Assembly: GCA_037783545.1 (NCBI GenBank)
Contig: JBBELK010001059.1
Span: 62,001-126,000, forward strand
Reading direction: 5' to 3'
Origin: Henricia sp. BOLD:AAB3569
Lineage: Eukaryota; Echinodermata; Asteroidea; Spinulosida; Echinasteridae
DNA: 64,000 bases
The stretch's first letter is position 1; each line of letters begins with the position of its first letter. The notes under the pieces were generated by a model. It saw only the letters and a list, made by a program, of their open reading frames with translations. It did not search any database and was not told where the DNA came from. Positions 436 to 27,171 of the stretch are shown one piece after another. Position numbers and translations under genes: made by a program.

Positions 436-568
436 CCTGATGGTTGGCAAGAAACACTGTGCGCATGCTCTGGACTCGGAGCCGCTCTCGAAAGCAACCT
501 AATTAGTTTTCATTCGTCATATTAGTACTGCCAGCATTTAATTTTCGCTTTTTCTTGTTAATCCTCAG

Positions 569-612
569 GGCAAATTAGAGTACCTTGTGAAGTGGAAGGG
601 ATGGTCCAACAA
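569..612 (+). CDS. CBX: CBX exon a: chromodomain core strand
   Basis: A 44 bp exon preceded by a pyrimidine-rich tract ending TTAATCCTCAG and followed by the strong donor GTAAGT. It reads GKLEYLVKWKGWSN plus two bases of a split Lys codon (AA|G), so it enters in phase 0 and leaves in phase 2. The W..W pair of VKWKGW supplies two of the three aromatic-cage residues of the methyl-lysine pocket. Any preceding exon must end on a codon boundary, as in the RK|GK junction usual for the class. Confidence 0.93.
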
Positions 613-3600
613 GTAAGTATATAACATCTGACAAGTCCATGAACACGCTGTAAAAACATCGCAGTCAAATGTGACTAGAAAACAGGCAAACTATTGCACC
701 AAGCTGACCCTTATTACATGATTGGTAAACTGTTACAAATAGTTGTATCCCCCTGTGTGATTGAAGATATGCATGATTAAAACCAACCTGAGCACAACAA
801 AAACTACCTCCGTACTTCGTCTAACTTTTGAGAAAACGGTCAAAAAAGGGTTTGCAGTCATTTCGCCCTAAAACCATTTCGCCACGCCCCGTGCACCAAG
901 TGGTTTTAGGGCGAAGTAGCATTTGGGCGATGTAGTGTTTAGCCGAAGTGATTTGGGGCGAAATGGCACTCGGGCGAAGTGGTTTGGGGGCGAAATGGCA
1001 CTCGGGCGAAGTGGTTTGGGGGCGAATTGAATTTTCGTCTTATGAGACGAAAACTGTTTCTTTTGCTCATTTCTCAAAGACTATGGCACTTCAGACAAAA
1101 CCATTTCAGGGGAAGTTTTCTACGGTCATCATGTTTATATTGTGTAAGTTAGGTGTAAATCTGTGAACATTTCTGATTTTCGAGATACCATTCATGTATA
1201 CTGCCTTTAAAGGTTTTGTGAAATGGAATTTAACAACCAGCTGGTTTTACACACAAATCAAAGGATCAAACTGCTGCAAGAGGCAAACTCAAGTTTGTTT
1301 TTATTTCAGAAAGTGACATTTTCTCTACTTTATGATTTTGTTGACAGGCGAGGGCGCTGTTTATTGAGTTCACCCACAGTCGAAAAACAGAAAGATCATT
1401 TCAAAAATAACAGTAGCATGCAGTAGCCCACTGATCCATTTTGGACTAAAAATAAAATTGTTAGGATTGTTGCAAATGACATACTAAACAAACTCACTTA
1501 GTAAACTGACAGTTCATGACATCTAGAAGCCACTGAAAATCATGACACAAACGTTTGTACTCGAGTCTATGGAGAATTCCTCTGTTGTCCTGAGATGACA
1601 TCACAGCTTTGCTCATGGATAATTATGGAATTTCATTAGCATAAAAATAGAAAATTTGCAATTAGGCCTACACCAAAACACAACTATTAAATTATCTGAA
1701 ATTGATCGAAATGTGTAAAACACATCCTCTTTATACTATTGTTTTATGTAATAAAAATCCTGTTTCATGCTTCCTTTAAGGCATTACTGATAAATGACGA
1801 AATATTACTAACAATGAATTTGACTCCGCCTGGTAGTTGTTTTAACAAGATATCCATTTGATATTACGAGGATTCTAGTCATCCAGTTGCACCCAGCTGA
1901 CCCTTATTGTCTAGTTATTAGGTGATCGGGCCAACAGCCCGATCACCTATTACTCTCGTACGATTTCTTTGTCTTTTTTTTTTTTAGGTGATCGGGCCAA
2001 CAGCCCGATCACCTATTACTCTCGTACGATTTCTTTTTTTTTTTTTTTTTTCTTTTTCTTTTTCCACTCAAACGTTTCCAGAGCTTTTCTTCAAAACGGT
2101 TCAAGCTATCAACTTGAAACTTTGTAGGAACATCAACCCCAATGTGAAGGTGTGCATACAAGGGTGACGTCATTGTGACGTCATTGGGTATCAAATTACA
2201 ACCCAAAAATGACTAAAATATGCATGTTTTAAAATGCTTCCGTCTGGAAAACCACGTGACCCATGATTTTCGTATTTAGCAGGCTTATAGATAAGATCAT
2301 GGCCTACGATTTTCTTCGTGTGGGCATTTTCATCTGACCCTTCCTTCTGGGGTCAATCTGAGGTCAAAGTTCAACGAAAACGAAAATCGCAATTTTTGCA
2401 CTTATTGAGCAACAATGCCCATCAAACCAAGCTGAATCTTTAAGTAACTAAGTACAGGCATAGGTCCTATGGCAGACTTTCACCAGCGTGTATAATATTA
2501 TGATGGCATCAAGCGTGACGTCATCGTGACGTCATCAAGTATCAAATTACACCCCCAAAAAAACCAAAATATGCATATTTTAAAATGCTTCCGTCTTGAA
2601 AACCACGTGACCCAGGATCTTCGTATTTGGCAGGTTTATAGATGACATTCTGTGCTACAATTTTCTTTGTGTGGGCATTTTCATCTGACCCTTCCTTCTG
2701 GGGTCAATTGGAGGTCAAAGTTCAACGAAACTGAGAATCTCAGTTTTTACACTTACCAGCAACAATGCCTATCAAACCAAGCTGAATCGTTAGTAAATTA
2801 GATACAGACATAGGCCCTACGGCAGACTTTCACCAGAATGTATAGTATCACGATGGCATCAAGTGTGACGTAATCATGACGTCATCAGGTGTCAAATTAC
2901 AAAAATTCAAAGGTTATTATTTCCAAAATTCATATCTCAAGAACCGTAATAGATACTTGAACAATTCTTTCACAACATGATAAGTCTAAATGAACTGAAC
3001 AAATCATACGATGTCATGACCCCTGTGTGACGCCTACTTCCGGTCCAAACCGGAAGTTGTTCGAAAATGTGCATTTTGTAAGCGTTTTGAATGCAAATAG
3101 ATTCAAAGTGGTAGTGAATTTGACCATATTTATACGGAACGAAATGTTTCCACACATGTAGACTTTTTGACTATACCATTTGTGACGTCATCACATGGAC
3201 AGTGGTTACGTAATGTGGCGTCAAAATACGCTAATTTGGAGCTGAATTGTTTTAAAATGCTGTATCTTGAGAACTACAGCAGATATTTGCATGATTCTTT
3301 CGCCACATTTAAGAACTTGATGTTTATCAAATTGTTGAACAATTTGTGCACAACATTGTGACGTCATGATATCGTCACAGGTGTCAAATTACAAAAATTC
3401 AAAGGTTATTATTTTCAAAATTCATATCTCAAGAACCGTAATAGATACTTGAACAATTCTTTCACAACATGATAAGTCTAAATGAACTGAACAAATCATA
3501 CGATGTCATGACCCCTGTGTGACGCCTACTTCCGGTCCAAACCGGAAGTTGTTCGAAAATGTGCAATTTTTTAGCATTTTGAATGCAAATAGATTCAAAG

Positions 3601-6600
3601 TGGTAGTGAATTTGACCATATTTCTACGGAACGAAATGTTTCCACACATGTGGACCTTTTGACTATACCATTGGTGACGTCATTACATGGACGGTGGTTA
3701 CTTAATGTGGTGTCAAATCACGCAAATTTGGAGCTGAGATGTTTTAAAATGCTGTATCTTGAGAACTACAGCAGATATTTGCATGATTCTTTCGCCACAT
3801 TTAAGAACTTGATGTTTATCAAATTGTTGAACAATTTGTGCACAAAATTGTGACGTCATGATGTCGTCACAGGTGTCACATTACAAGATTTCAAAGGTTA
3901 TTATTTCAACAATTCATATCTCAAAACGGTGCAAGCTATCAACCCCCAGCTATGGCGGATATGCAGGGAGGAGATATTAGTTACCGGATTAGTGTATACA
4001 GCAGCCGATTTCACGAAACTTTACGCAATTGCGCAAGTCCACTTACGCCATAAGTTATTGCGCAAGTAATGGCGTAAGTGGACTTGCGCAATTGCGTAAA
4101 GTTTCGTGAAATCGGCTGCTGAACTTCCATTTTTGCCATTCCACAGGTGATAACAACGTCTGAAATTCATCACAAAATGTTCATTTAACCCGATCACCTG
4201 GCGTTTGTAACAACAAACGTCATACCTCTATTTGGCTTTTTCGTTTAGGACGAAAAAGCCTTTGTTTTCGTTTTGATTTTTTTTTTTTTTCCGTTTATTT
4301 CTTCTTCTGATTTTTTTCCCATAGACAAAGCGCATAGGCGTTGTCGGCGCTTTTTCAGGTTGTTCCCAAACATTGATCTTAACCAAACTTGGTCACATCA
4401 AAGACATAGTATAAGAGGTGTGCACCCAAGAATGGCTTCATTGTGACGTCATCAGTGACGTCATTACAACAGTTTAAAAATGCCTAAAAAGCCGAAAATT
4501 ACCAAAATATGCACATTTTAAAATGATTCCCTTGCCAAAACCGCGTGACGCAGGGTCTTCATATTTGGCAGACATATATATCAGATCCTAGCCTACAATG
4601 TTCTTAGTGTAGGCGTTTTCATCTGACCCTTCCTTCCTGGGTCAATCGAAGGTCAAAGTTCAGCCAATTCAAAAATCACATTGTTTGTATTTTGTTTTAC
4701 TTATGAAGCAATATTAGCTACTAAAGTACGCTTGATCTTCATAAAACTAGGTACAGGCATGGGCCCCATCACAAACTTCCACCACCATGTAGAACGTAAC
4801 CATGACGTCACTGATTACGTAATTATAATAATTTAAAAATGACACAAAAGTGGATTTTCGTCATAAAAATGAGCCAAATATGCATTTCGTAAGATGTTTC
4901 CCTCTATAAAACCACATGACCCAGGGTCTACATATTTAGCAGACATTATAGATCAGATCCTGGGCTACAATTTGCTTTGTGTAGGCATTTTCATCTGACC
5001 CTTCCTTCCTGGGTCAATCGAAGGTCAAAGTTCAGCCAATTCAAAAATCACATTGTTTGTATGTTTTTGTACTTATGAAGCAATATTAGCTATTAAACAA
5101 CGCTTGATCTTTATAACATTAGGTACAGGCATGGGCCCCATCACAAACTTCCACCACCATGTAGAACATCACCATGACGTCAATGATTACGTAATTATGA
5201 TAATTTAAAAATGGCAAAAAAGTGGATTTTCGTCATGAAAATGACCCCAAATGCATTTCGTAAAATGTTTCCCTCTATAAAACCACATGGCCCAGGGTTT
5301 TCATATTTAGCAGACATTATAGATCAGATCATGGACTACAATGTTCTTTGTGTAGGCATTTTCATCTGACCCTTCCGTCCTTGGTCAATTGAAGGCCAAA
5401 GTTCAGCCAAGTCGCAATTTGAGTAAAACCATGCATAAGCCACCCGGCCCGCCGCGCCCCAGGCCATGCACTCGCGTTTTGCTACCGTGAAAGTGATATA
5501 GCGCCCTCATAGTTATACATGTATAGCTAAAGAGAGAATGCGCAGTACGTGTAAACATGTACTTGTTGTAAGTTGCGCGAACATGCAGTGCACGTCCCAT
5601 TTAAAAACAAAAGCTTAATATAGGCCTGAAATAATTAAGTCATTGTCTGGATTTTATTGAACCATCTTTTAAAAATCTAAATACGAAATTGTCCTCCTTG
5701 GCCAAACTCTTTTCAATCTTAACTAATTATGTGCTCTGATTTCTGCCTAATATATGTATATCAGTATTTCGAGTAAACATCGCGTTTCCATCCCAAATGT
5801 GAACAAAACAAACTAAAAATGAACAGTTTAGAATTCGCAAAGGGAAATCAAACTTGCCTCTAAACTGAGTTTTCAGGATAATCTTTTTAAATATTTAATT
5901 TATAACTGCATGTGACATTATGACAAATAGTACTAAATTTACAGTAACTTAGGCCTAATCGATGTTTTTAAATGTGCAAAAACTGAAAATTGCCATATTT
6001 TCAAATCTAAACATATTTTCTGAATCGATGAAGGCTTCTGTACTATTTCCATTAAATGTACATGTTATTTTGTTTTATATGAAATTTGGCCCAAGACTCT
6101 CTTAGTATGAATCCTGAACATACATGTTATGATACTCCTCAAGGAGCTAATTAAGTAATCAAAAGTTTTTACCTGCGCCATGACTTGGTATCTCACAGTT
6201 CATCAAACACTTGGAAGTGGCAGATCTGTATAGCAGTACACTCAGGCAAACCGACACAACTCAAAAACTGTTCATCATCAGGTATAAGATTAAATGAGCA
6301 TACAATTTAATGTTTTCCATATTCAAACATTCGTAACAAATCAGCCGATTCACCTATGATCGTGATTCCTGCGCCATATACGGTAATTAACAAAGGTATT
6401 TAACTGATGATCTCATAATGACGTAATAACGTGTCAGATTAAAGGTGATACAAATATTATAAACCTTGATTCCTTCCCATATACGATCACTAGCAAAGCA
6501 AAGGTCGTTAACTTTTGGTTTTTCCGTTTATTTCTTCTTCTTCTGATGTTTTCCCCATTGACATAACGCATGGGCGTTGTCGGCACTTTTTGAGGTTGTT

Positions 6601-9600
6601 CCCAAACTTGAGGTTGTTCTTAAACAAACTTGGTAACATCAAAGACATAGTAGAAGAGGTGTGCACCCAACAATGGCGTCATCATGACGTCATCAGGTGT
6701 AAGTTTAAAGGGGCATGAAATTTAATGTTTCCATATGCAAAAATTCATAAAAAAATCAACCATTTGACCTACGATCTTGATTCTTTCGGCATATACGATC
6801 ATTAATAAAGGTCTTTCAGATGCCCCCATGCCTTCACATTTGACCTCATTCCCTATTGGTCAAACAGACTTTGCCTTGCCATTTGAAACTGGTAAGAGGT
6901 ATTTGGATGGGGTCAAAGGTGTTTGAGTTCGACTAGAGTGGGGTATCCAAAAACATATCGCTGTGACCTTGCTCACTTCCGGTAGAAACCGGAAGTGCAT
7001 TTAAATGAACCTATTTTGTAAAAGTGGGGAAAGCTGCCGAGATGTGGTTGGTAGTGTTAGTTTATAAGGTAAATAGGGTTTCCAAAAATGTAAGTTTCTA
7101 CGTCATTCCATAAAAGGGTGCCCTCTAGCGGCAAAATTAAAAAGTCTTAAAATGACCCTTTGATAGCAGTGTTTGCGCAAATTAGCCCAATAGTGGTGAA
7201 TATAGAGTGAGTGCGTCGACCACCAAACATGTCTGTATTGTTAAAACATTGATTACGTCATCAATCCTTTAAAGGTAACACATTAAAGGTAAACATTTTT
7301 TAAATTAAATACTTTATATACTTTTTGCAAGCTAAGCATGCTCATTTTTGAAGTTAAAAAAATTAGAAAAAGCCCTACGCTCTGTTCATAGAACAGACGT
7401 AGCTCTATTTAGGTGATCGGGCCAACAGCCCGATCACCTATTACTCTCGTACGATTTCTTTATTTTTTTTTTTTTTTTTTGGCTTTTTCGTTTAGGACGA
7501 AAAAGCCTTTGTTTTCGTTTTGATTTTTTTTTTTTTTCCGTTTATTTCTTCTTCTGATTTTTTTCCCATAGACAAAGCGCATGGGCGTTGTCGGCGCTTT
7601 TTCAGGTTGTTCCCAAACATTGATCTTAACCAAACTTGGTGACATCAAAGACATAGTATAAGAGGTGTGCACCCAAGAATGGCTTCATTGTGACGTCATC
7701 AGTTACGTCATTATAACACTTTAAAAATGCCTAAAAAGCGGAAAATTGCCGAAATATGTACTTTTTAAAATGGTTCCCTTGCCCAAACCACATGACCCAG
7801 GGTTTTCATATTTGGCAAACATTTAGATCAGATCATGAGCTTCAATGTTCTTAGTGTAGGCATTTTCATCTGACCCTTCCTTCCTGGGTCAATCGAAGGT
7901 CAAAGTTCAGCCAATTCAAAAATCACATTTTTTGTATTTGTTTGTACTTATGAAGCAATATTAGCTATTCAACCATGCTTGATTTTCATAAAACTAGGTA
8001 CAGGCATGGGCCCCATCACAAACGTCCACCACCATGTAGAACGTCACCATGACGTCAAGGATTACGTAATTATAATAATTTTAAAATGGCACAAAAGTGG
8101 ATTTTTATCATGAAAATTACCAAAATATGCATTTCGTAAAACGCTTCCCTGTATGAACCCACATGACCCAGGGTCTTCATATTTTGCATACATATATATC
8201 AGATCATGGGCTACAATGTTCTCTGTGTAGGCATTTTCATCTGACCCTTCCTTCCTGGGTCAATCGAAGGTCAAAGTTCAGCCATTTCAAAATTCACATT
8301 TGTTGTGTTTTTGTGTACTTATGAAGCAATTTTAGCTATTAAAGTACGCTTGATTTTCATAAAACCAGGTACAGGCATGGGCCCCATCACAAACTTCCAC
8401 CACCATGTTGAACATCACCATGACGTCAATGATTACGTAATTATAATTATTTAAAAATGGCAAAAAAGTGGATTTTCGTAATAAAAATTAGCCAAAAATG
8501 AATTTCGTAAAATGTTTCCTTCTATAAAACCACATGACCCAGGGTCTTCATAAATAGCATACATTAGAGATCAGATCCTGCGCTACAATTTGCTTTGTGT
8601 ACTCATTTTCATCTGACCCTTCCTTCCTGGGTCAATTGAAGGCCAAAGTTTAGCCAAGTCAACATTTCCGTATATACAGGGTGGATTTAAAAAAACGAAA
8701 CCGAGATATTATTGCTAATTGTAACTAAAGTAGGGCGCGTATGAATGAACGGGAGATATCATCTGTTAGGGTTGATTCTCCTCTTCAAAATGACACCATG
8801 ATCATGTCATTATGTTTTTGGTTGACTGAGCAGTGACCAGTGTTATGCAAGGGGCCTAGTTTTAGATTTGACCGTTCTCAATGCGAGCAAACGTCGTACA
8901 AATAAATCTTTACCGTAGCTGTCTATTCCGTGTGCCCTGTGTGACACGGCGTCGACCGAGACGGTGACACGGTAACTTTTAACTGTGTCTACCACGGACG
9001 TGTAATTCTACAGAAGATATGTGAGTAGGATACAATCTTTTATGTTATTTCAGTCTTATTTAAGAGAGTCCACTCTCTACAAGAAAGTAATTGTATGTTA
9101 TTGAGGGAATGTCGTAGTTTTGCCGTGAAGCATTCATTCCAATGTTTGTTTTCATCCTTTTAGGTTTAGTAAGGTGCAAAGCTTAATATAGGCCTGATAT
9201 CATTAAGTCATTGTCTGGATTTTATTGAACCATCTTCAACAAATATAATTAAGAAAATGTTCCTTCTTGGCCAAATTCTTTTCAATCTTAACAAATTATG
9301 TGCTCTGATTTCTGCCTTTGATGACTAATATGTGTAGGCCTATATCAGTTTTTTCGAGTAAACATCGGATTTCCATCCCAAATGTGAACAAAACAAACTA
9401 AAAATTAACAATATTTTTTCGCTGACTACATCGTGAGACAGCAGATGAAAATTACCAAAATATGCACTTTTAAAATGTTTCCCTCTATAAAACCACATAA
9501 TCCAAGGTCTTCATATTTAGCAGACATTATATATCAGATCATGTGCTACAATTTGCTTGGTGGAGTCATTTTCATATGATTCCTCCGTCCTGGGTCAATT

Positions 9601-12600
9601 AAAGGCCAAAGTTCAGCCAAGTCAAAATTTGCGTAAAACAATGCATAAGCCACCAAATGTCGACTTCTGTACGTGACCGGCAGAGGGCGTCATTCATAAA
9701 TTACGGTGATGCACAGACCTATAAACCTATAGACCAACGATCGTGCATTAAAAATCGTGACTTGGAAAAGTATGGGCAAATGACGACACAATGGGCTGCA
9801 TGAGCTAACAGCGCGGGTTTAAAGCGCTCACGGCTATTCCAAAACGCGCGTACGCCGTGTGTAATGTACGCGTTCCTATGAAGTATGGGCGATGGACGCA
9901 CGACGCTCGCAAAGCGGACTGACAGCGCGCACGAGGATTAATTGTCATGCTTCCAAACTACTTCTAAAAAAAATAATAAAAATTCATAAACAATTAATAT
10001 ATTACACATGCCATTTTAATATACATGTAGGCCTAGCATCTAAAAGCAAATTCAAACCTTGTCTGCATCACCCAGCTGAGCTCCATATTGTACTTTTAAT
10101 CTGCTGTTGTAATCCCGTAACTATATAGCCATTCATTATCGCTTTACGGTTACCGTAACTATAGCCACTGCGTAGTAGTTCTGAATCCGTTGCATCACCA
10201 AATACACACGCAGCGGCACGCATAGTGCACGCGACGTCAACTCAAATTCTCGAAACAATGACGAATCATACCCGACGATTAACGATAACGTCCGGACGTG
10301 CATTCGGGTAACTTCGGGAACATTTGCAAAAAGGAGCAATTCCTCCTGTTTCAATGTGGCGGGCAAACGTGTACATATTACGCGTGTGGTCTAGTGGATA
10401 TGAGGCGGGACTCCCAATCAGAGGTTCGAACCCCACTTCGACCAACGTGTCTGTGTCTCTGGGCAAGGCACTTAATCCCAGTTGCCTCGTAAACCCAAGC
10501 GATATATGGGAAGTTGTTAAGGGGAATGCCACAATCTAACTGCTGATAGTGTTGTGCGCCTGAAGCGAAATGGTTCTGGTGATTCCCTGATGGCAGCGGT
10601 AATAATGGTAACAACGCCTTGAGCACCCTGCTGGGTGGATATGTGCGCTATATAAATCTCATCACTATTATTCAGATGCCCACATGCTTTGACCTTTGAC
10701 TGACTCTGCTTGTAGTTTGAACGTGTTCAGAGCTAGTCTACTGTTTTATGGTTCAACTAGGGTAGGGTATTTAAAACTATGGTGTTGACCTTTGACCTTG
10801 CTCTACCAGAAGTGCATTTAAATAATTAAACCTATTTTGTAAAAGTGGTCAACGATGCCGAGATCGGATTGGCAGTGTTAGTGTCTAAGGTAAATGCTTT
10901 CCAAAAAATGCGCCCTCTAGCGGCGAAATTAACAAATCTTAAAATTACCCTTTCATAGCAATGTTTGCGCAAATTAGCCCATAGTGGTGCTTATAGAGTA
11001 CGTCGACCACCAAACATGTCTGTAGTTAAAACATTGGTTACGTCATCAGTCCTTTAAAGGTAACGCATTAAAGGTTAATATTTTAGGTTAAATAGTTGAT
11101 ATGTTAACAACATAAAAAAAAAATGTGAAAAAGCCCTACGCCCTGTTCATAGAACAGACGTAGCTCTAGTTTTTTTTTCTTTTTCTTTTTCCACTCAAAC
11201 GTTTCCAGAGGTTTTCTTCAAAACGGTTCAAGCTATCAACTTAAAACTTGGTAGGAACATCAACCCCAATGTGAAGATGTGCATACAAGTGTGACGTCAT
11301 TGTGACGTCATTAGGTATCAAATTACAAACCAAAAATGACCAAAATATGCATGTTTTAAAATGCTTCCGTCTGGAAAACCACGTGACCCATGATCTTCGT
11401 ATTTGACAGGCTTATATATCAGATCATGGCCTACAATTTTCTTCGTGTGGGCATATTCATCTGACCCTTCCTTCTGGGGTCAATCTGAGGTCAAAGTTCA
11501 ACGAAAACGAAAATCTCAATTTTTGCACTTATTGAGCAACAATGCCCATCAAACCAAGCTGAATCTTTAAGAAACTAAGTACAGGCATAGGTCCTATAGC
11601 AGACTTTCACCAGCGTGTTTAATATTATGATGGCATCAAGCGTGACGTCATCGTGACGTCATCAAGTATCAAATTACACCTCCCAAAAAACCAAAATATG
11701 CATATTTTAAAATGCTTCCGTCTCGAAAACCACGTGACCCAGGATCTTCGTATTTGGCAGGTTTATAGATGACATTCTGTGCTACAACTTTCTTTGTGTG
11801 GGCATTTTCATCTGACCCTTCCTTCTGGGGTCAATTGGAGGTCAAAGTTCAACGAAAACGGAAATCTCAGTTTTTACACTTACCAGTAACAATGCCCATC
11901 AAACCAAGCTGAATCGTTAGTAAATTAGATACAGACATAGGCCCTACGGCAGACTTTCACCAGCATGTATAGTATCATGATGGCATCAAGTGTGACGTAA
12001 TAATGACGTCATCAGGTGTCAAATTACAAAAATTCAAAGGTTATTATTTTCAAAATTCATATCTCAAGAACCGTAATAGATACTTGAACAATTCTTTCAC
12101 AACATGATAAGTCTAAATGAACTGAACAAATCATACGATGTCATGACCCCTGTGTGACGCCTACTTCCGGTCCAAACCGGAAGTTGTTCGAAAATGTGCA
12201 ATTTTTTAGCATTTTGAATGCAAATAGATTCAAAGTGGTAGTGAATTTGACCATATTTCTACGGAACGAAATGTTTCCACACATGTGGACCTTTTGACTA
12301 TACCATTGGTGACGTCATTACATGGACGGTGGTTACGTAATGTGGTGTCAAATCACGCAAATTTGGAGCTGAGATGTTTTAAAATGCTGTATCTTGAAAA
12401 CTACAACAGATATTGGTATGATTCCTTCGCCACATTTAAGAACTTGATGTTCAACATATTGTTCAACAATTTGTGCACAAAATTGTGACGTCATGATGTC
12501 GTCACAGGTGTCACATTACAAGATTTCAAAGGTTATTATTTCAACAATTCATATCTCAAAACGGTGCAAGCTATCAACCCCCAGCTATGGCGGATATGCA

Positions 12601-15600
12601 GGGAGGAGATATTAGTTACCGGATTAGTGTATACAGCAGCCGATTTCACGAAACTTTACGCAATTGCGCAAGTCCACTTACGCCATAAGTTATTGCGCAA
12701 GTAATGGCGCAAGTGGACTTGCGCAATTGCGTAAAGTTTCGTGAAATCGGCTGCTGAACTTCCATTTTTGCCATTCCACAGGTGATAACAACGTCTGAAA
12801 TTCATCACAAAATGTTCATTTAACCCGATCACCTGGCGTTTGTAACAACAAACGTCATACCTCTAGTTTTTTTTTTTTTTTTTTTCTTTTTCTTTTTCTT
12901 TTTCCACTCAAACGTTTCCAGAGCTTTTCTTCAAAACGGTTCAAGCTATCAACTTGAAACTTTGTAGGAACATCAACCCCAATGTGAAGGTGTGCATACA
13001 AGGGTGACGTCATTGTGACGTCATTGGGTATCAAATTACAACCCAAAAATGACTAAAATATGCATGTTTTAAAATGCTTCCGTCTGGAAAACCACGTGAC
13101 CCATGATTTTCGTATTTAGCAGGCTTATAGATAAGATCATGGCCTACGATTTTCTTCGTGTGGGCATTTTCATCTGACCCTTCCTTCTGGGGTCAATCTG
13201 AGGTCAAAGTTCAACGAAAACGAAAATCGCAATTTTTGCACTTATTGAGCAACAATGCCCATCAAACCAAGCTGAATCTTTAAGTAACTAAGTACAGGCA
13301 TAGGTCCTAAGGCAGACTTTCACCAGCGTGTATAATATTATGATGGCATCAAGCGTGACGTCATCGTGACGTCATCAAGTATCAAATTACACCCCCCAAA
13401 AAAACAAAATATGCATATTTTAAAATGCTTCCGTCTTGAAAACCACGTGACCCAGGATCTTCGTATTTGGCAGGTTTACAGATGACATTCTGTGCTACAA
13501 TTTTCTTTGTGTGGGCATTTTCATCTGACCCTTCCTTCTGGGGTCAATTGGAGGTCAAAGTTCAACGAAACTGAGAATCTCAGTTTTTACACTTACCAGC
13601 AACAATGCCTATCAAACCAAGCTGAATCGTTAGTAAATTAGATACAGACATAGGCCCTACGGCAGACTTTCACCAGAATGTATAGTATCACGATGGCATC
13701 AAGTGTGACGTAATCATGACGTCATCAGGTGTCAAATTACAAAAATTCAAAGGTTATTATTTCCAAAATTCATATCTCAAGAACCGTAATAGATACTTGA
13801 ACAATTCTTTCACAACATGATAAGTCTAAATGAACTGAACAAATCATACGATGTCATGACCCCTGTGTGACGCCTACTTCCGGTCCAAACCGGAAGTTGT
13901 TCGAAAATGTGCATTTTGTAAGCGTTTTGAATGCAAATAGATTCAAAGTGGTAGTGAATTTGACCATATTTCTACGGAACGAAATGTTTCCACACATGTA
14001 GACTTTTTGACTATACCATTTGTGACGTCATCACATGGACGGTGGTTACGTAATGTGGCGTCAAAATACGCAAATTTGGAGCCGAATTGTTTTAAAATGC
14101 TGTATCTTGAGAACTACAGCAGATATTTGCATGATTCTTTCGCCACATTTAAGAACTTGATGTTTATCAAATTGTTGAACAATTTGTGCACAACATTGTG
14201 ACGTCATGATATCGTCACAGGTGTCAAATTACAAAAATTCAAAGGTTATTATTTTCAAAATCCATATCTCAAGAACCGTAATAGATACTTGAACAATTCT
14301 TTCACAACATGATAAGTCTAAATGAACTGAACAAATCATACGATGTCATGACCCCTGTGTGACGCCTACTTCCGGTCCAAACCGGAAGTTGTTCGAAAAT
14401 GTGCAATTTTTTAGCATTTTGAATGCAAATAGATTCAAAGTGGTAGTGAATTTGACCATATTTCTACGGAACGAAATGTTTCCACACATGTGGACCTTTT
14501 GACTATACCATTGGTGACGTCATTACATGGACGGTGGTTACGTAATGTGGTGTCAAATCACGCAAATTTGGAGCTGAGATGTTTTAAAATGCTGTATCTT
14601 GAGAACTACAGCAGATATTTGCATGATTCTTTCGCCACATTTAAGAACTTGATGTTTATCAAATTGTTGAACAATTTGTGCACAAAATTGTGACGTCATG
14701 ATGTCGTCACAGGTGTCACATTACAAGATTTCAAAGGTTATTATTTCAACAATTCATATCTCAAAACGGTGCAAGCTATCAACCCCCAGCTATGGCGGAT
14801 ATGCAGGGAGGAGATATTAGTTACCGGATTAGTGTATACAGCAGCCGATTTCACGAAACTTTACGCAATTGCGCAAGTCCACTTACGCCATAAGTTATTG
14901 CGCAAGTAATGGCGTAAGTGGACTTGCGCAATTGCGTAAAGTTTCGTGAAATCGGCTGCTGAACTTCCATTTTTGCCATTCCACAGGTGATAACAACGTC
15001 TGAAATTCATCACAAAATGTTCATTTAACCCGATCACCTGGCGTTTGTAACAACAAACGTCATACCTCTAGTTATTGACTGAAGTTTTTAGTGTGCATGT
15101 TTATCTCCTTCAGTATGACATTGTAGTTTGCACATAACGCGTAACGATGCACTCATGACAGATTGAATAACATTGTATTAGATTGGAAGCGCACACATAG
15201 GGCGACACCACAAGATAAATTTCAAGCCACTGAAATGTCCAAAAAAAACTTGCCGAAAACAAAAATCATCTTGCATCATAATTTCGAGTTTCACTATAAA
15301 AGGTATATAGGCACAATTAGAATAACTCTTTATTCATCTGCATACATCTCAAAGAGCCAAAATTAATGTGTTAGATTTCTCATTAGATTCCCGATAGGTC
15401 AGAAGTTTACGACAGTCAAATATTCCTGCATGGTTTTCATAATTTTCTTTGTTTAGCCCCACACCACAGTGAATTGAAAAAGGATACGCAATTGTCTGAA
15501 AATATAAATTCTTGATCAGAACAGAAATTTGTTGAATAGGCCTACAGTGAGCTTATGGATAAGAAGGTACTGATCGACCCGTCACTTTGGAATCACTTTT

Positions 15601-18600
15601 AAGACTGAGCCTGCGTGGGATGCTGAGCTGACCTCAGGAGTCACGCGTCTCCCAAACAGCCCTGGAAGTGCAAGAGAAGCTCAGGGAGGCGCTTTGGGCA
15701 GCCTATGGCGCACCCTGCCTCAACGGCTCTTAAGGAGGCTGGTGCAGTCAGCGTTGCCACAAGATGTATACCCAGCACGATATGTGGCAGAGGGACTCCC
15801 CTCTAACGCCACTATACCTCAACACACTCTTCCCTTCTGTTAACGCACCAATCCCCCCTAAAAACTGAAAGGAATTCCTTGGAAATTCCTTGGATAGGGG
15901 AACAATGGTATATGGGGGGAGTCCGTTTGCCACATATCGTGCTGCATATGACAAAATGTGTCCGTACAAATTATCGTCCGATAAAAATTGTTTACATTTC
16001 TCAGCCGTACGGTCAGAGTTTAATTTAATTGCGTTCATTTTTTGAACCGTACTCGAAGCGAGTGATTAATAATTTGTTTCCATTTTGCTAACAGGCACAA
16101 CACATGGGAACCGGAGGACAACTTTCTGGACAAGCGGCTGCTGGACGGATACTCAACAAGGTGAACAATATTTTCTAGTGAGATGACTTGCCCTTTAGTG
16201 ATCATGTGTCTCGACATGGTATATAAAAATACCTTGGGCGATTCGATTCTGATTCCACTTAAGAATCGCGATTCCATTCGATTCCATTTTCAAAGCAGGC
16301 TTTATAAAAATATCTCTTAAACCTGATGCAAAACACTGCCAAACTTTTGAAATGTTGTCATTTCGATAATATTCAGAAATACGCGGGCATTTTCGCCAAA
16401 ATAATGTGAATCGATTCCACCAAAAGACGGAATCGCGATTCCGATGCTCAATCTGGAATCGATTATAATCGACTTCAACCCTGGAAATGAAGACTATATG
16501 AAGATGGCACCGTTAATATAGTTACCATTTCATGTCCGTAGGCTGAGGGTTTGGGGTTCGAACGAACTCCACCCCCTCCCCTTCCTTCCTTCCTTGTAAT
16601 CTGAAGCCCGAGGACCCGGCTCATTATTGCTTTTTTGACCTCAGACATTTCTTTTTTTTATGGCATCCTATAGACCGTATCGAATAGCCGCCATCTTGTA
16701 GGGCACATTTTGTTTCTCAAACTGTTCAACAATGTAAGCACATGCAATATGTGCAACCATGCATATACACCCACACAGGCACCCACCCAACGGGTCTGCA
16801 TGTCCCTACAAAATTCAACCCCACCCCGCCCTAAGACCTGAACATAATTTCGTGGATGTTTGATACATCATGGGAACACCGTGGAGGTACCCTCTGCCAC
16901 ATTCTCTCGCACCACACCACCCCCCCTCCCCAACCCCCACCCCAAACAAATTACATTTACACAATGCACTTCACACTTACAGCTGCACGCATACAACTGT
17001 GTATTTCTAAATCGGGCGAGCCGATCGTTTGTCGTGTGAAATATCCGTCGATCGAACGACGCTGCACAGCTTGTAACGTTGACATTGACATGGACTTTAC
17101 CTTATTTCGAGACAATCGCACAAATTACTAATTCATCTTGATAAATGCGTTATCACGCTATTTACATGTCAAACCTCTTAACCTGATTAACATAGAATGG
17201 TCTCTGAATGAGTGTTGCGCGAGCTCTGAGTGGATTCATAAATTAAACGTAAATTTGACAATAAATTAAACTCCAAATTCGAAAATACAAACAAAATGAA
17301 ATGCCTATTTTTTTTTATCAAAAGGCAAGTTTTTAAAATGAGTTTTGTCATTGTTAAATGAATGTAGTGTGAACATAGGAACAGCAATAACACATACTTT
17401 CATCGACTTACCCTTATTTTGAACATTTTTCTTTCTCAAAATTTCTCATTACAATATATACGAATAATAGAGAAATTTAAACAACGCTGAATGCCGCAAT
17501 GGGGCGACATTTCGGGAAGACTCTCACCGGAGACCACCGAAATTTCGGCAAGAGTGACTCAAAATGACACCTTATTTTTTTACCCAAAGCTTCCAAAAAT
17601 GGTTGAAGACCGAAGAGAAACAGGTCCAGTCCCAATAAAAATGGTTTTCGACCTAAATAAAATGAATTTTAAACTCAAAAATATTAGGGCGACACCAAAA
17701 TGTCGCCCTATTGAGCAGGTCGCCCTAATATAGCTTTTTTACACACGATTTGTCGCCCTATTCTAGCATTGATAGTAATTTGGGATTGAAAGAAAAACAT
17801 ATTTTTCACTTTGGTGTTTCTCCCAAATATAGCCTCAACGGTGTCTAAAGTAAAATGTTGTTTATCCAGGAAATATTGCTGTATGTACATTTTGCTTTTG
17901 CTTTATTTTTCAGATTTCTTTTAAAACTTCCTCTCTGTCAAGTTGTCAAAATATTATTTTGTTTAAATTGTGATCAATGATTCAGGATCTAGGAACAGAA
18001 AACAAGGAAGACTTGTTAGCAATAACAAACGACAACACAGGGAAAATAAGCTTTGGAGATGGGGTATCGTGTATAGGCTTGGGCGACTCCAGCATTTTCG
18101 GAGTCGACTCCGATTCCAAAAAAGAATCGGGATTCCATTTTTCACCTGAATGTGTGAGCATGTTTAAGTGCGTGTACATTGACGAGACTGCATTATTGTA
18201 CAGACGACGATCTAATTATTGGCACTAAACATCCATGAAATAATGCCGGCCTGTGCCATGCCGCACACGTTCCTAAATCATCAGAGGCTGAAAATGGAGT
18301 GTTTTGGCTTCGGAATTGCTAGGTAATTGCTGGGAATTGAATCTAGACGAAAGGATATCAATTTCTACGGGGAATCGATTCCTCAAAAATCTGGAATCGC
18401 GATTCCGATTCCTAGAGGGGAATCGATTCTACTCGACTCCGGCGTGGAATCGCCCAAGCCTATTGTCGTGGCCGAGTGGTTTGGGTGGGTTAGCATTGCG
18501 TTCGCACTGTGGACTCGAAACCCATTCAAGTCCACAATTTGCGGGAAAAAGTGACGGATTATGGACTTGCACTCGTTCGCTCAAGTCCACAGTCAGGTTG

Positions 18601-24600: not shown

Positions 24601-27171
24601 TAAAAAAAAAACCACTTTCAGTTGGCAATTTCTCCCACAAAGGTATACCATTTTACACGGGAAAAATCACGTGGTGTTTGTTACCGTTGCTATTCAACAC
24701 TTTTAGTCAGATTTTTCTTTTCAACTTCTGAAGTCAAATTTTGCTTCATCCAAACATCCATGTACATTTTTTCTTGGAATAATTACAGTGTTTCTTACTT
24801 AAAACCCATTTTTATATAAAAGCTGTGCATGCAATTAAGACTTCCTGCTTCGCCTTGCGTACTTAAAAGATTACTTGGTTTGAATAGAAAGATCTTAAAA
24901 GCACCTGTACTTTTAGTCAGTGATCAACCATTTTGGTTTTTCATTGCAGACGTGCTGATGTGACGTCACGTCGCGGCAAACGACCCAGGAGGCAGCTATC
25001 GCAGGTGAGAAGGGAGCGAGAAAAAAGGCGCCAAAACAAAGCATCGCCTTTATTGTCTGGAGAAAGCGCGTCACTCGTTTTCCACCACGTTCATGCGTGC
25101 ATGTCATACTACACCAGAAGATCCGTACGACGGTCTGTATCCGCAAAAGAGCGCACTGTCTTTCAGAGGGCCATTGTCAACATATTGTTGTACATTTGTG
25201 TAGCATTTGTTTGTCATTTTTCGATCGATATTAAATACTGTTTAAAAGTATATAACCGACCGACGAAACACCGTTCATATTGATGTTTCGTGTGACAAAA
25301 AGATGACATATTGATATGCACATAATATATGTAAGACGCACAAATTTGACAAATTACATAGTGCAAAACAGCATACAATATTACGACATGAGCAGTGTAA
25401 AAAACGGAACAATTAAACTTCATATTTCTCCCTTTCATATATTATTTCTCCGTGCATACTAATTCGGGTGCTGTGTATTTTTCGGTCAAAAAATAATGTG
25501 TAGGCCCAGGCCTATATACAGTCATGCTGATGAACTTTGTTGTGCTATCATTTTTGTTCCCTGCACCAACTGAGGAGTGGTCCGAAAATGCAATGTACGC
25601 CGCCAAAATGTCATCAAAGGCGAGGCTTGGAACGCATACAGTGAAACCTGCTCTTAGGGTCACCTCTATAAAGAGGCCACCTGTTTATAAAGTGGCCATA
25701 TTTGTTCGGTCCCAAACCAGTTTGTACACAAACATATGGAGGTGAAACCTTGATATTAGGGCCCCTCTCTAACGAGGCCAGTGGCCAGGGCACTTGGATT
25801 CCTGTGTGTACAATCATATGGCAGTTAAACCTGGATAATCTGGCCACACACAGTAAATTGCCTCAATGAATCAAGCTACACTGGGAAATTTTATGAGGAG
25901 CTTAAAAATATTATTCAAAACTAAAAGATTTTCAACTTTTTAATGAGCAAACCTTTCATACACTTCACTTTAAGCAGTTTTTTTTTATCTATAGACATGC
26001 ACTTTGGTTTAATGATGTTTGGATATTCCGCTTAACTTCTATATAGTGGCCACCTGCGTATTCTGGCCACATTTCGTCGGTCCCTTGGGTGGCCACTATA
26101 TAGCCTTCAAGTTTCACTGTATTAGTCTGACATCTTCCCGATTATTATAATTCTATTTTGTGGAACCGATTCAGGGGACACGGTTGAAAATTCGTGAATA
26201 AGATCTATACAACGACAGTGTTCACTTTATATGTGCATGGAATTTGTGTTTTATCGATCACTAGGTTTCTTTGTAACTTTTTAATCTTTATGCAGCCATC
26301 TGCAATGTACCTCTCCGAATTATCATACAACTGGACGTGTAGTAATGCCTTCCCTGGGAGATTCCGGCTGGTTAAAGACCCCGTGAACGGGACCTGGCGC
26401 ACGGGCGGGACATCCACCGGGGATGGCACAACCCACCAACGAGAGGAACTTGACCATCGCCCGGTAGACGGTGTCCCCGAAACACGCTTGGAAAGTACCA
26501 CAACAGGCTACCCACGGCGGGCAGGCGTGGTGTACTCCCGGTCCACCTCAGCGCCGAGTAACTGCCGGCGAGTCAACCCGAGCGAGGACCGGTCCGACTG
26601 GACCTGGAGTCCCGGATCGGACCGGAGTCAAACTTCGGTCGCGAATGCCTCGGATGCCGGGGACCAAAGCTCCGCCGACCGTGACCTGGAGAGCTTCTAC
26701 GTGGACGAGTTGTCGGATTTTGAAATGCTTGAAACTTGTGGAAGCTCAGAGTCCAAGGTGTCTCCGAAACTCTCGCCAAAAATCGTCCTAAAAAGAATCA
26801 TTCCCACCGAATCGGCGCCCGCGCGGCCACGGGAAAACGACGACTTCAACACCAGTTTCTCAGACTTTGAAAATACCACGTACTACCAACATGACCCCAA
26901 ACCCCAGATGGCGCTAGACTCACGTTGCCATGACGACACGGTCAATAAACCCGTTCACCATGAACTCAAAGCGAAGTCTAGATTTCCACAGGCCGACAGG
27001 GAAGTTGTGCGACTACCGACAAAACCCACAGCTTTGGACGTCTCCATGCCTCGCCGAATGAGGGCGTCTGACGGAGTGGTGGTGACTGACGTGACCTCTG
27101 GTGGGGTCACAATCACCATCAGGGAGAGTGGCCAATCAGATGGGTTCTTTGGGAATAAAAAGGCCCCTTGA
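569..27171 (+). CDS. CBX: Polycomb-group chromobox protein (CBX2/4/6/7/8 class), 5'-partial, four visible exons
   Basis: CBX proteins are nuclear PRC1 subunits: the chromodomain binds H3K27me3 and the C-terminal Pc box binds RING1A/B. Joining 569-612, 16095-16160, 24950-25004 and 26296-27171 gives 346 visible residues. Residues 1-31 are the C-terminal half of a chromodomain, with VKWKGW (two aromatic-cage tryptophans, W9 and W12) and NTWEPE. Residues 44-51 (RRGKRPRR) match the basic motif that follows the chromodomain in this class. About residues 174-210 are acidic. Residues 316-340 (VVVTDVTSGGVTITIRE..GFF) are a Pc box, and the protein ends six residues later. There is no chromoshadow domain, so it is not HP1-type. 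The start codon and first cage aromatic lie upstream of the window. Introns are 15,482, 8,789 and 1,291 bp; intron positions agree with my recollection of vertebrate CBX genes. The exact paralogue is not resolved. Confidence 0.93.
862..1030. repeat. Short tandem repeat with inverted start
   Basis: A unit of about 32 bp (cgaaatggcactcgggcgaa plus gtggtttgggg) is present twice in near-identical form, with degenerate copies before it. The left edge carries an inverted copy of TTTAGGGCGAA. No coding potential is seen. Confidence 0.6.
1920..1948 (+). other. 5'-terminal hairpin of E1
   Basis: A perfect 12 bp stem with CAACA loop. The same 29 bases recur at 1986-2014 and 7411-7439, each followed by ATTACTCTCGTACGATTTC and a T-run. 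Each starts a family-1 element. Confidence 0.75.
2181..2885 (+). repeat. Tandem units of ~352 bp in E2
   Basis: Two head-to-tail copies, each carrying ATATGCAT.TTTAAAATGCTTCCG, CATCTGACCCTTCCTTCTGG and a double TGACGTCA block. The corresponding units are at about 11333-12010 (E4) and 13037-13725 (E1). Confidence 0.75.
2891..3874 (+). repeat. Tandem units of ~492 bp in E2
   Basis: Two copies starting GTCAAATTACAAAAATTCAA. Each contains the palindrome ACTTCCGGTCCAAACCGGAAGT and two TGACGTCA sites. E1 has two such units (13732-14715); E4 has one (about 12018-12510). Short repeated reading frames inside them are repeat copies, not genes. Confidence 0.75.
3999..4121. repeat. Perfect 53 bp-arm hairpin inside E2
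   Basis: Arms begin CAGCAGCCGATTTCACGAAA and end with its exact complement, around a 17-base centre. Copies are at 12634-12756 (E4, one mismatch noted) and 14839-14961 (E1). Just before it (about 3943-3998) is a stretch matching the terminal repeat of the MITE at 46541-46884. Confidence 0.75.
4234..7407 (+). mobile_element. Family-2 element E3
   Basis: Begins with hairpin GGCTTTTTCGTttaggACGAAAAAGCC broken as an 11 bp stem and 5-base loop. It continues through a T-tract and ~370 bp units with TGACGTCA and CATCTGACCCTTCC, and ends with AAAAAGCC (inverse of the 5' arm), a TCTGTTCataGAACAGA hairpin and CTCTA. The middle (about 5400-6500) is non-repetitive AT-rich sequence partly shared with E5 (5600-5820 resembles 9176-9410). 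Three T residues separate it from E2. Confidence 0.68.
7481..11168 (+). mobile_element. Family-2 element E5, inserted in the T-tract of E4
   Basis: Same 5' hairpin as E3, ~370 bp tandem units to about 8660, then a unique section. The 3' tail (10673-11168) matches the E3 tail (about 6830-7407) and ends in AAAAAGCC, the TGTTCataGAACA hairpin and CTCTAG. A SINE sits just before the tail. The unit near 9420-9640 is a degenerate repeat copy. Confidence 0.68.
10379..10672 (+). mobile_element. tRNA-derived SINE
   Basis: The head has A-box TGGTCTAGTGG and B-box GGTTCGAACCC. A central GGGCAAGGCACTTAATCCC block follows, and the tail is GAGCACCCTGCTGGGTGGAT..GTGCGCTATATAAAT ending in ATTATT. The tail nearly matches the 3' end of the LINE fragment at 49500, so that LINE lineage is the likely source of its enzymes. 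Inserted in element E5. Confidence 0.85.
12634..12756. repeat. Long hairpin inside E4
   Basis: The E4 copy of the 123 bp hairpin, with GGCGCAAGTGG in the right arm where the left arm predicts GGCGTAAGTGG. Confidence 0.7.
14839..14961. repeat. Long hairpin inside E1
   Basis: The E1 copy of the 123 bp hairpin; arms are fully complementary as in E2. Confidence 0.7.
15508..15745. repeat. Dispersed repeat, copy near CBX exon b
   Basis: Shares CTTGATCAGAACAGAA, CACTTTGGAATC.CTTT, GAGCTGACCT and GGCGCACCCTG segments in order with 49872-50215. Class unknown. Confidence 0.55.
15773..15944. mobile_element. MITE, CAGCACGATATGTGGCA family (copy 1)
   Basis: Inverted ends CAGCACGATATGTGGCA. The interior has GGAATTCCTTGGA and GTTAACGCACC. 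Related copies are at 32091-32264 and 43455-43630. It lies just upstream of CBX exon b. Confidence 0.75.
16095..16160 (+). CDS. CBX: CBX exon b: C-terminal chromodomain
   Basis: A 66 bp exon between acceptor CTAACAG and donor GTGAAC. The first base completes Lys15; the next 21 codons read HNTWEPEDNFLDKRLLDGYST, and AG of a split Arg codon ends the exon. WEPE is the family signature before the C-terminal helix. The usual ILDPRLL appears as FLDKRLL, so a conserved proline is lysine here. Confidence 0.92.
16230..16485. mobile_element. AATCGCGATTCC-rich element (copy 1)
   Basis: Made of GATTCGATTC and GAATCGCGATTCC words in both orientations; related to 18073-18462. It starts within 75 bases of the CBX donor at 16161. 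Confidence 0.6.
16669..16790. mobile_element. MITE, TATAGACCGTATCGAATAGC family (partial)
   Basis: The left end and interior are present (TATAGACCGTATCGAATAGC, CCATGCATAT), but the right inverted end is missing. Full copies are at 32884, 37410 and 43949. Confidence 0.65.
17487..17762. mobile_element. GTCGCCCTA element, copy 1
   Basis: About 276 bp, starting CTGAATGCCGCAATGGGGCG and containing the inverted set ATTAGGGCGACA / TGTCGCCCTATT and GGTCGCCCTAATA. Strongly similar to 23986-24272. Reading frames inside are repeat-derived. Confidence 0.75.
18073..18462. mobile_element. MITE, TAGGCTTGGGCGA family (copy 2)
   Basis: Inverted ends TAGGCTTGGGCGA / TCGCCCAAGCCTA with GGAGTCGACTCC and GGAATCGCGATTCC palindromes inside. 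A SINE-like element begins directly at its right edge. Confidence 0.75.
18464..19110 (+). mobile_element. Diverged composite SINE-like element
   Basis: A Leu/Ser-tRNA-like A-box (GTGGCCGAGTGGT) is followed by a degraded B-box region, a TTAGGG-rich insert, then SINE core sequence (TTGAGCAAGGCACTTAAAC, GTGCTCCATCCTTCGGAAGG) and a GTGCGCTATATAAATG tail. It is longer than the other copies, so it is either composite or interrupted near 18620-18720. Confidence 0.6.
19181..19352. mobile_element. MITE, TATATACCTCATACATTGAT family
   Basis: Inverted ends TATATACCTCATACATTGAT / ATCAATGTATGAGGTATATA and an internal TTAACCAATCAG. Related ends occur at 29500-30005. Confidence 0.75.
19967..20308 (+). mobile_element. 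tRNA-derived SINE, same family
   Basis: A-box TGGTCTAGTGGG, B-box GGTTCGAGCCCC, GGGCAATACACTTAATCTC core, CAAGCGATATATGGGGAGCTG and a GTGCGCTATATATAAG tail into ATTATTATT. Diverged from the copy at 10379 and carrying an extra CCAGGTAGCCATCTAG segment. Confidence 0.82.
20590..20835. repeat. Dispersed repeat with GTTGCTATGTGGTGCA hairpin (copy 1)
   Basis: An inverted pair GTTGCTATGTGGTGCA / TGCACCACGTAGTAAC with ACCGTG.TC interior; flanks such as GACATACACTTG and GACTTTCTAAACTG also match 38903-39170. Confidence 0.65.
22190..22393 (-). mobile_element. TTAAAGGAGCTTGTTCAGA family, partial
   Basis: In reverse orientation it shares TTAAAGGAGCTTGTTCAGAT, TTTCCAGAAAA and AAACATCGGTGT with 33708-34074. 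The other end is not identified. Confidence 0.55.
22521..23906. mobile_element. 1.4 kb inverted-repeat transposon, GAGAGTGGGGTTAGTTGG ends
   Basis: Left end GGGAGAGTGGGGTTAGTTGG, right end CCAACTAACCCCACTCTCCC. Subterminal copies of GGGGTTAGTTGAAACA-type motifs lie on the left and inverted versions on the right. No transposase is seen, so it is non-autonomous. It hosts another MITE at 22961-23128. Confidence 0.8.
22961..23128. mobile_element. MITE, CAGTGAAACCTG family, nested
   Basis: Ends CAGTGAAACTTGTATATAG / AACAGGTTTTACTGTA with TGGCCACTAT / ATAGGTGGCC interior motifs; same family as 25637-26121. Confidence 0.72.
23986..24272. mobile_element. GTCGCCCTA element, copy 2
   Basis: Same order of motifs as copy 1: GCCGCAATAGGGCGACATTT, CCGGAGACCACCGAAATTTC, paired GTCGCCCTA at the right. 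Ends ..TTTGTCGCCCTAT. Confidence 0.75.
24480..24745 (+). repeat. CTTGTAGAAATTTCAGCCAC family, partial (+)
   Basis: Shares TTGCCTTGTAGAAATTTCA, ATACTTCAGAAA.CCTGA, GGCAATTTCTCCCACAAAGG and CAACACTTTTAGTC with the full copy at 56961. It ends about 200 bp before CBX exon c. Confidence 0.7.
24950..25004 (+). CDS. CBX: CBX exon c: basic AT-hook-like motif
   Basis: A 55 bp exon after acceptor TTTTTCATTGCAG and before donor GTGAGA. The first base completes Arg37 and 18 codons follow, ending in phase 0 with ..QLSQ. RRGKRPRR corresponds to the K/R-rich motif directly after the chromodomain in Polycomb CBX proteins, involved in nucleic-acid contact in CBX2. The frame stays open past the donor to 25283, so intron retention would add a 92-residue basic tail, but phase 0 joining to the last exon restores the Pc box and is preferred. 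Confidence 0.88.
25637..26121. mobile_element. MITE, CAGTGAAACCTG family, in the last CBX intron
   Basis: Ends TACAGTGAAACCTG / AGTTTCACTGTA, with several internal GTGAAACC or TTAAACCTGGAT starts and GGCCACCTGT / GTGGCCAC words, so it looks built from repeated end modules. It fills over a third of the 1.3 kb intron and ends 174 bp before the terminal exon. Confidence 0.75.
26296..27171 (+). CDS. CBX: CBX terminal exon: linker and Polycomb box
   Basis: An 876 bp terminal exon after acceptor TCTTTATGCAG, giving 291 residues and a TGA stop. It is much more GC-rich than its flanks, as expected for coding sequence in this AT-rich locus. The linker is rich in S, T, P, D and R, with an acidic stretch (VDELSDFEMLE). 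The Pc box VVVTDVTSGGVTITIRES lies at 27076-27132, followed by GFF ending at 27150, and is the RING1-binding element. The frame is open upstream to 26194, but that is intron sequence before the acceptor. Confidence 0.92.
   Translation, partial: PSAMYLSELSYNWTCSNAFPGRFRLVKDPVNGTWRTGGTSTGDGTTHQREELDHRPVDGVPETRLESTTTGYPRRAGVVYSRSTSAPSNCRRVNPSEDRSDWTWSPGSDRSQTSVANASDAGDQSSADRDLESFYVDELSDFEMLETCGSSESKVSPKLSPKIVLKRIIPTESAPARPRENDDFNTSFSDFENTTYYQHDPKPQMALDSRCHDDTVNKPVHHELKAKSRFPQADREVVRLPTKPTALDVSMPRRMRASDGVVVTDVTSGGVTITIRESGQSDGFFGNKKAP

Follow-up and report, generated by a model that had tools for sequence, protein, structure and literature searches.

Stacks of nested non-autonomous Helentrons in a CBX intron and elsewhere in the genome of the sea star Henricia sp.

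In a stretch of 64,000 nucleotides from the sea star Henricia sp. BOLD:AAB3569 (assembly GCA_037783545.1, contig JBBELK010001059.1, forward-strand positions 62,001 to 126,000; hereafter the window, with positions counted from its first base), 13 kb of one CBX intron is taken up by an array of five mobile elements, E1 to E5. We conclude that the array is very probably a stack of non-autonomous Helentrons (HINEs) that was built by repeated entry of new copies into the T-tract of copies already resident. A preliminary description of the window, made from its letters alone, had proposed five starts (1920, 1986, 4234, 7411 and 7481) and five ends (4230, 7407, 11168, 12865 and 15070) for these elements. 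All ten boundaries are present, and the five-element nest is real.

The ends are of two types, A (three starts and three ends) and B (two of each), and from left to right they read A( A( A) B( B) A( B( B) A) A). As typed brackets these balance without remainder as E1[E2,E3,E4[E5]], the pairing that had been described, which a random order of the ends would do with a chance of 1/60 (420/25200; 0.0166 by simulation). When the guests are removed, E1 rejoins as 66+2205 = 2271 bp and E4 as 1767 bp; the uninterrupted E2 measures 2245 bp. The bodies of E1 and E2 show 11 differences across 2188 bp, and E4 is shorter than either by exactly one 492-bp repeat unit. Judged from genome copies of the type-A unit, the outer E1 unit with its terminal nucleotides spans approximately 1919-15072. 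A genuine target duplication at E1 (GTTATT, 6 nt, on both sides; chance 0.0004) was considered and rejected; the match is partly explained because the genome copies assign GT to the element.

The elements had been called helentron/HINE-like, and the assignment to HINEs, that is, to non-autonomous Helentrons, is supported by their anatomy and by copies elsewhere in the genome, which show the same architecture. Type A starts with AGGTGATCGGGCCAACAGCCCGATCACCT, ATTACTCTCGTACGATTTC and a T-tract, and ends with CCCGATCACCTGG, the hairpin CGTTTGTAACAACAAACG and TCATACCTCTA; type B starts with GGCTTTTTCGTTTAGGACGAAAAAGCC and ends with GAAAAAGCCC, a hairpin and ACGTAGCTCTA. Both ends carry subterminal inverted repeats (subTIRs), GGTGATCGGG / CCCGATCACC in A and GGCTTTTTC / GAAAAAGCC in B, and five end pieces representing the 5' palindrome and the near-end 3' hairpin all form hairpins when folded as single-stranded DNA (z -4.05 to -6.15). 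There are internal tandem repeats of approximately 350, 371 and 492 bp, and T flanks on either side without a target-site duplication, as judged from filled sites. The canonical Helitron features (5' TC, 3' CTRR, insertion between A and T) are absent, type A having 5' TAGG, 3' CTCTAGT and a position between T and T. No coding capacity was detected: the longest open reading frame that begins with a start codon within the array has 88 aa, and four longer copies, three of them not traced to their end, contain no stop-to-stop frame above 140 aa. Searches of the viral_contigs and genome_contigs databases with the hairpins and ends returned zero matches. The A and B repeats are approximately 69-73% identical over 500-760 bp, from which we conclude that the two types are related. 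A third family, A', is related to A, has ends in ...ACGCGAAGCTCTAG and was seen at loci L080, L085, L093, L096, L016, L024 and L015; the A-like arm AGGTGATCGGAACTCATTCCGATCACC at L015 may be the start of A'. The statement that each element carries its own T-rich landing pad holds in the window and in the genome copies. In the free type-A arms that were read (n=23), 24-39 nt separate GATTTC from the body, and the sequence directly behind GATTTC is TTTGTC, TTTA or TTTT, which defines three arm types.

A double-arm query consisting of the E1 and E2 arms was run against the assembly that contains the window (740.7 Mb, 2104 contigs). This gave 722 candidates, 40 of which were scored; all 40 matches span both arms and 39 cover the entire query. 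Twenty of the 39 double-arm loci other than the window were read in detail (21 loci with the window). Since the query itself demands at least two arms, the sample is biased to multi-arm loci, and all 20 read loci accordingly hold at least two (arm numbers 2 to 7). The arms accumulate at the left and the bodies at the right. The query did not select for the DNA behind the innermost end, which was reached in 18 of the 21 loci: 13 have an A body there, three another arm and two neither (in the other three loci this end was not reached). Bodies behind an end begin in a T-rich tract or, in one case at L021, in a T-rich stretch just past a B tract. Nine stacks balance exactly out to their genomic flanks, namely L009, L010, L018, L023, L026 and L028 with two arms and two ends each, L011 with three of each, L022 with four and the window with five. 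Repeated insertion yields n arms followed by n bodies in mirror order. At L021 the arms run A B B B B A A and the closings A A B B B, with an A body behind them, a two-family mirror order which, with one B closing short, is as nesting predicts. Double arms as a fixed family trait were rejected for most loci, where right-hand bodies match the arms, with the exception of L016 and L017. The nesting pattern is not peculiar to this CBX intron. The self-targeting two-family stack, which had been singled out as unusual, is real, but it is one of many in the genome.

The frequency of nesting was scored in a second, arm-independent sample, chosen by the type-A 3' end (541 candidates, 40 scored). Over 110 bp each of the 40 ends matches the query at 100% identity, and the downstream DNA played no part in their choice; L037 and L038, although counted separately, stem from a single local duplication, and L057 and L059 may represent one event. 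Ten of the 40 ends are nested, continuing through a T-tract into another A body; no end continues into a B body, and the remaining 30 lead into other DNA. We also checked the tracts of A elements that have a genomic right flank, leaving aside L038 (the duplicate) and L060 (the known outer end of L019). From 28 elements selected, 20 were retrieved and 18 were readable, and six of these have an occupied tract (one by A, one by B and four by A'). All three families, A, B and A', therefore enter A tracts. In all 16 of these cases the guest lies in the orientation of its host, as in 35 of 35 occupied arms of the double-arm set, where the query favours this. The proportion of nested ends, a quarter of the sample, suggests that self-insertion is a possible main fate of young rolling-circle copies rather than an accident. 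Nesting outside the T-tract also occurs: at L046 an A element lies antisense inside another A body (A end at 2374, oriented).

All 40 sampled A ends read CTCTA|GTT, and the outermost left flanks end in TT at 20 of 21 loci, the exception being L026 with its irregular first arm. The type-A unit can thus be written as TAGG...CTCTAGT, inserted between two Ts, in agreement with published HINEs as described in the excerpt available (PMC4067079). Genome copies were checked for ends that coincide with the hairpin starts and with CTCTA, as had been suggested, and they do so with one or two extra nucleotides. A simple T^T site fits the outer flanks of the window and of seven of the eight other complete stacks, L026 being irregular.

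Is a liking for T-rich DNA enough to account for the stacks? On this explanation any long T-rich tract would serve, and the elements' own arms would merely be among the best available. Published HINEs are reported, in the same excerpt, to favour T-rich sites (PMC4067079), and the six T-runs of at least 12 in the window all lie in HINE arms or tract remainders. In the genomic insertions, however, such tracts are scarce. The T-run right behind the G is 2-5 long at 30 of 30 genomic A ends, the outermost left-flank T-run is 2 at 18 of 21 loci and 5 at two, and 11 of the 30 genomic ends lie in (ATT)n (L035, L036, L037, L038, L041, L042, L051, L063, L064, L069 and L073), microsatellites that may be a second preferred target. 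At least 10 Ts in 12 bases are found within the next 40 bases at all ten nested ends and at six of the 30 genomic ends, only one of which has 11. Outside the array the window has eight sites of at least 11 Ts in 12 per 50,820 bases, which extrapolates from this one window to approximately 116,000 such sites genome-wide, against HINE arms counted in the hundreds, a lower bound. Arm insertions nevertheless make up a quarter of the 3'-end sample, and none of the sampled ends abuts a genomic tract of at least 11 Ts in 12. Long T-runs are thus not found directly beside the genomic insertions, which makes a preference for poly-T, taken by itself, a poor explanation. The Helentron preference for T/T sites that had been pointed out for these elements is thus seen in their flanks but is insufficient by itself. 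Two counts pull in the opposite direction: the six genomic ends just mentioned, and the five of ten nested ends that have just four Ts directly behind the G. Together they slightly raise the odds of plain preference and slightly lower those of recruitment by the resident and of the explanation adopted here. Plain preference would be rescued if very long tracts, above a sharp threshold, were required, as no pure T12 occurs outside the array in the window. We regard plain preference as unlikely, although it is the strongest of the rival explanations.

The proposed series of events is as follows. Each copy brings a 5' hairpin and, behind it, a T-rich tract. A new copy enters the tract of a resident between two Ts (in type A as the unit TAGG...CTCTAGT), in the same orientation and without target duplication. 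The resident is thereby split, its short arm coming to lie to the left of the newcomer and its body to the right, and the newcomer adds a fresh tract for the next copy. That a resident's tract is entered in preference to T-rich DNA elsewhere probably reflects the Rep/helicase machinery, which would recognise the 5' hairpin of the resident and nick or open the adjacent tract, a step that we infer. Recruitment by the resident's 5' end is favoured because rolling-circle machinery must recognise that part. We tentatively suggest, at a confidence somewhat short of even, that resident HINEs actively attract further copies: the transposition complex at the 5' hairpin of a resident would steer new single-stranded copies into the T-tract next to it, the three families would share this address, and positive feedback would follow. 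If so, recruitment would be the reverse of transposon target immunity, with each copy a renewable landing site. The 2014 HINE paper, in the part available, asks for biochemical work on the Helentron mechanism (PMC4067079).

Several further observations weigh against a simple account of nesting. The preliminary description placed every insertion directly behind a 5' hairpin; this is so for E2 and E5, the only elements visibly placed in the tract there, but not for E3 and E4, which come behind the 3' ends of E2 and E3, respectively. These two joints (4226-4234 and 7403-7411) read CTCTA-TTT and lack the G, which all the remaining ends examined (A, B and A') possess. E3 and E4 would nonetheless lie in the tract of E1. 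A candidate origin for the G-less joints, read from the sequence, is that E3 and then E4, each with TTT, entered between the A and the G of the preceding end; entry at this point at both joints would leave a single G behind E4, as is observed. In addition, six stacks fail to balance. L017 has two arms and one end; L016 has two arms, one young end and an end of an older family approximately 1 kb further on; L019 has five arms and six ends; L024 and L025 each have three arms and three ends plus a further body start, to which point they were traced; and L021 has four B arms and three B ends, its final A body being traced short of its end. The loci L012, L013, L014, L015, L020 and L027 were followed part-way and balance was scored in the remainder. 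Guests are 99.4-100% alike and hosts 78-99.8% alike at seven nested loci of the 3'-end sample, which fits the expected age order weakly, the guests having been chosen for perfect ends. Finally, L057 and L059 share their guest (0.999), host (0.998) and junction string, and some nests have probably been copied as whole units, as the sequences of these two loci suggest.

If nests were mostly copied in this manner, as ready-made composites replicated from the outer arm to the outer end, there need have been few real nesting events. The guest, host and junction that L057 and L059 have in common would be expected of such copying, as would the two arms and one end of L017 of a partly mobilised nest, and excerpts of papers on Fusarium (PMC5148889) and maize (PMC3288121) describe or propose such composites. 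The stacks themselves, however, vary in lineage, in outer flanks and in guest and host lengths (1754/2153, 2248/2191, 2245/1711, 1749/2197 and 1897/2194). We compared 34 bodies from stacks with at least two readable bodies, L020 and L021 being set aside. For 31 of the 34 the nearest relative lies in another locus, often at 99.5-100% identity, which indicates that most nests arose from separate insertions. The three exceptions are two bodies of L025, the second and third, which are 99.94% alike, and the sixth body of L019, which is nearest to the second (99.8%); the fourth and fifth bodies of L019 are 99.9% alike. The surplus body in L025 and L019 may, on these similarities, reflect duplication within the locus, and the two A bodies of L021, a locus beyond this comparison, are sisters. 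To explain the other unbalanced stacks, arms would have to have been lost or gained by slippage, or nests partly remobilised as proposed for Fusarium and maize. Within the window, the notion that E2 is a local copy of E1 was rejected, each having closer relatives elsewhere (99.8%, against 99.5% between the two): the nearest body to E2 is the first of L018 and that to E1 is the second of L019, both at 99.8%, and the arm that the brackets predict for the latter is TTTGTC too. A first arm like that of E1 is also found at L009, L012, L015 and L016, such arms being favoured by the double-arm query. Copying of ready-made composites is improbable as the usual origin of the stacks.

Arms are short tandem repeats and prone to slippage, and it could be argued that there is no nesting, the arms having multiplied in this way and the right-hand bodies being 5'-truncated or locally duplicated. 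The disagreement between arm and body numbers in the six stacks listed above, and the near-identical bodies of L025, would fit. This explanation does not account for the two-family mirror order in the window and L021, nor for bodies that start, behind an end, in a T-rich tract or just past one, and it is opposed by the arm types, which track body lineage when arms and bodies are paired as brackets. The test of this was restricted to the nine balanced stacks, where sister bodies share their arm type in 10 of 13 pairs at an identity of at least 0.995 (mean of within-locus shuffles 4.2, p 0.0015) and in eight of eight pairs at 0.996 (p 0.003); the agreement declines as the cut-off is relaxed (14 of 26 at 0.993, p 0.02; 14 of 30 at 0.990, p 0.07). 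Across all scored loci at 0.996, with L020 and L021 omitted as mixed or branched, nested pairing agrees in 18 of 23 pairs and parallel pairing in 8 of 17. The three arm-assigned bodies closest to E1 (L019, L028 and L022) have TTTGTC arms and the three closest to E2 (L018, L011 and L026) have TTTT arms, in each case as predicted, and two of three agree for E4. We consider slippage without nesting highly improbable. An assembly artefact is less probable still: near-identical 2.2-kb copies are hard to assemble and the unbalanced stacks could be assembly slips, but many contigs show the pattern, some of them several Mb long, and the flanks, lengths and diagnostic differences vary between them.

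Helitrons that nest or insert into their own copies are a known kind, and the stacks can be compared with several published systems, in each case as far as the excerpts available to us describe them. HINE / DINE-1 elements (Thomas et al. 2014, PMC4067079) have in common with the array a 5' palindromic subTIR, a subTIR approximately 32 bp from the 3' end, a 3' hairpin, internal tandem repeats and T..T flanks without target duplication; nests in their own T-tract are not described in that excerpt, and clusters are ascribed to bypassed termination or neighbouring insertions. Cg_HINE of the Pacific oyster (PMC7492417) has similar modules, satellite-like tandem repeats and T-rich insertion sites, and again its excerpt does not describe self-nesting. 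In the FoHeli Helitron2 elements of Fusarium oxysporum (PMC5148889) the first 31-85 nt are repeated in some copies, which has been explained by self-insertion, and one FoHeli lies inside another, but the elements have multiple 5' termini and a single 3' terminus, and matched stacks of n arms and n bodies do not appear in the part seen. Stepwise nesting has been proposed as the origin of multiple termini in nested maize helitrons (PMC3288121); these, in contrast, are canonical Helitrons, and the excerpt sets out a hypothesised path for one element with no common landing pad. Outside the rolling-circle elements, the Zepp long interspersed elements of Coccomyxa (PMC3446292) form self-nested clusters of one mobile family, but they are retrotransposons with approximately one cluster per chromosome and an unrelated mechanism. 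Plant long terminal repeat retrotransposons that undergo autoinsertion (PMC6911290) prefer their own family and particular regions of it, but belong to an unrelated class and, in the excerpt, lack a landing tract tens of bases long. The literature searched, which was seen partly in excerpts and excludes most subscription papers, yielded no account of matched arm/body stacks or of one T-tract landing pad common to several families.

With the arms on one side and the bodies on the other, a stack is a structural archive of the order in which its members were inserted, and the many natural junctions allow a Helentron target rule to be deduced. Nesting also provides a route by which one intron can gain 13 kb without hitting new sites. 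Table 1 lists the positions of the array elements and of the host gene.

Table 1. Positions of the array elements and of parts of the host gene in the window.
Feature	Position	Strand	Remarks
CBX chromodomain exon part (QGKLEYLVKWKGWSNK)	566..612	+	upstream of array; tblastn E 1.9e-5
E1 5' arm	1920..1985	+	palindromic subTIR hairpin, GATTTC, then TTTGTC and T12; opens outermost type-A element
E2	1986..4230	+	uninterrupted type-A HINE in the T-tract of E1; paralogue of E1 without insertion
E3	4234..7407	+	type-B HINE; hairpin GGCTTTTTCG...CGAAAAAGCC, 3' end ...ACGTAGCTCTA
E4 5' arm	7411..7480	+	TTTA-T18 tract
E5	7481..11168	+	type-B HINE in the T-tract of E4
E4 body and 3' end	11169..12865	+	
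E1 body and 3' end	12866..15070	+	
Right-hand remainder (T19) of the T-tract of E1	12867..12885	+	behind nested block
Next CBX chromodomain exon part (HNTWEPEDNFLDKRLL)	16093..16161	+	tblastn E 5.7e-4
Frame with CBX C-terminal motif (Pc box)	26188..27168	+	Pfam CBX7_C, E 4.3e-7

The two chromodomain exon parts, found by tblastn with a chromobox query, flank the array and so place it within one CBX intron, as had been stated. Just upstream of the array a 22-base direct repeat, TTGCACC(A/C)AGCTGACCCTTATT, occurs with one mismatch at 694-715 and 1887-1908; it resembles the target duplication of another insert of approximately 1.2 kb.

Inside the array, E3 contains a second B head (6513-6696). That this head is a private fossil nest was rejected, two B bodies of L021 matching weakly (74-75%) at a similar place; E3 may be a long form of B. 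A tRNA-like short interspersed element, with a box B read by eye, lies within E5 at approximately 10378-10680, and a partial copy (84% identity) is found outside the array at 20019-20165. Near the 3' end of the type-A bodies there is a palindromic insert (3943-4121 in the window). Inverted pieces that match it at 46542-46597 and 46827-46882 suggest a miniature inverted-repeat transposable element captured by the A family. The central repeats of A and B (2043-4000, 4443-5444, 7690-8662 and copies) appear by eye to be rich in TGACGTCA and AGGTCAAAGTTCA-like motifs, which resemble cAMP response elements and nuclear-receptor sites.

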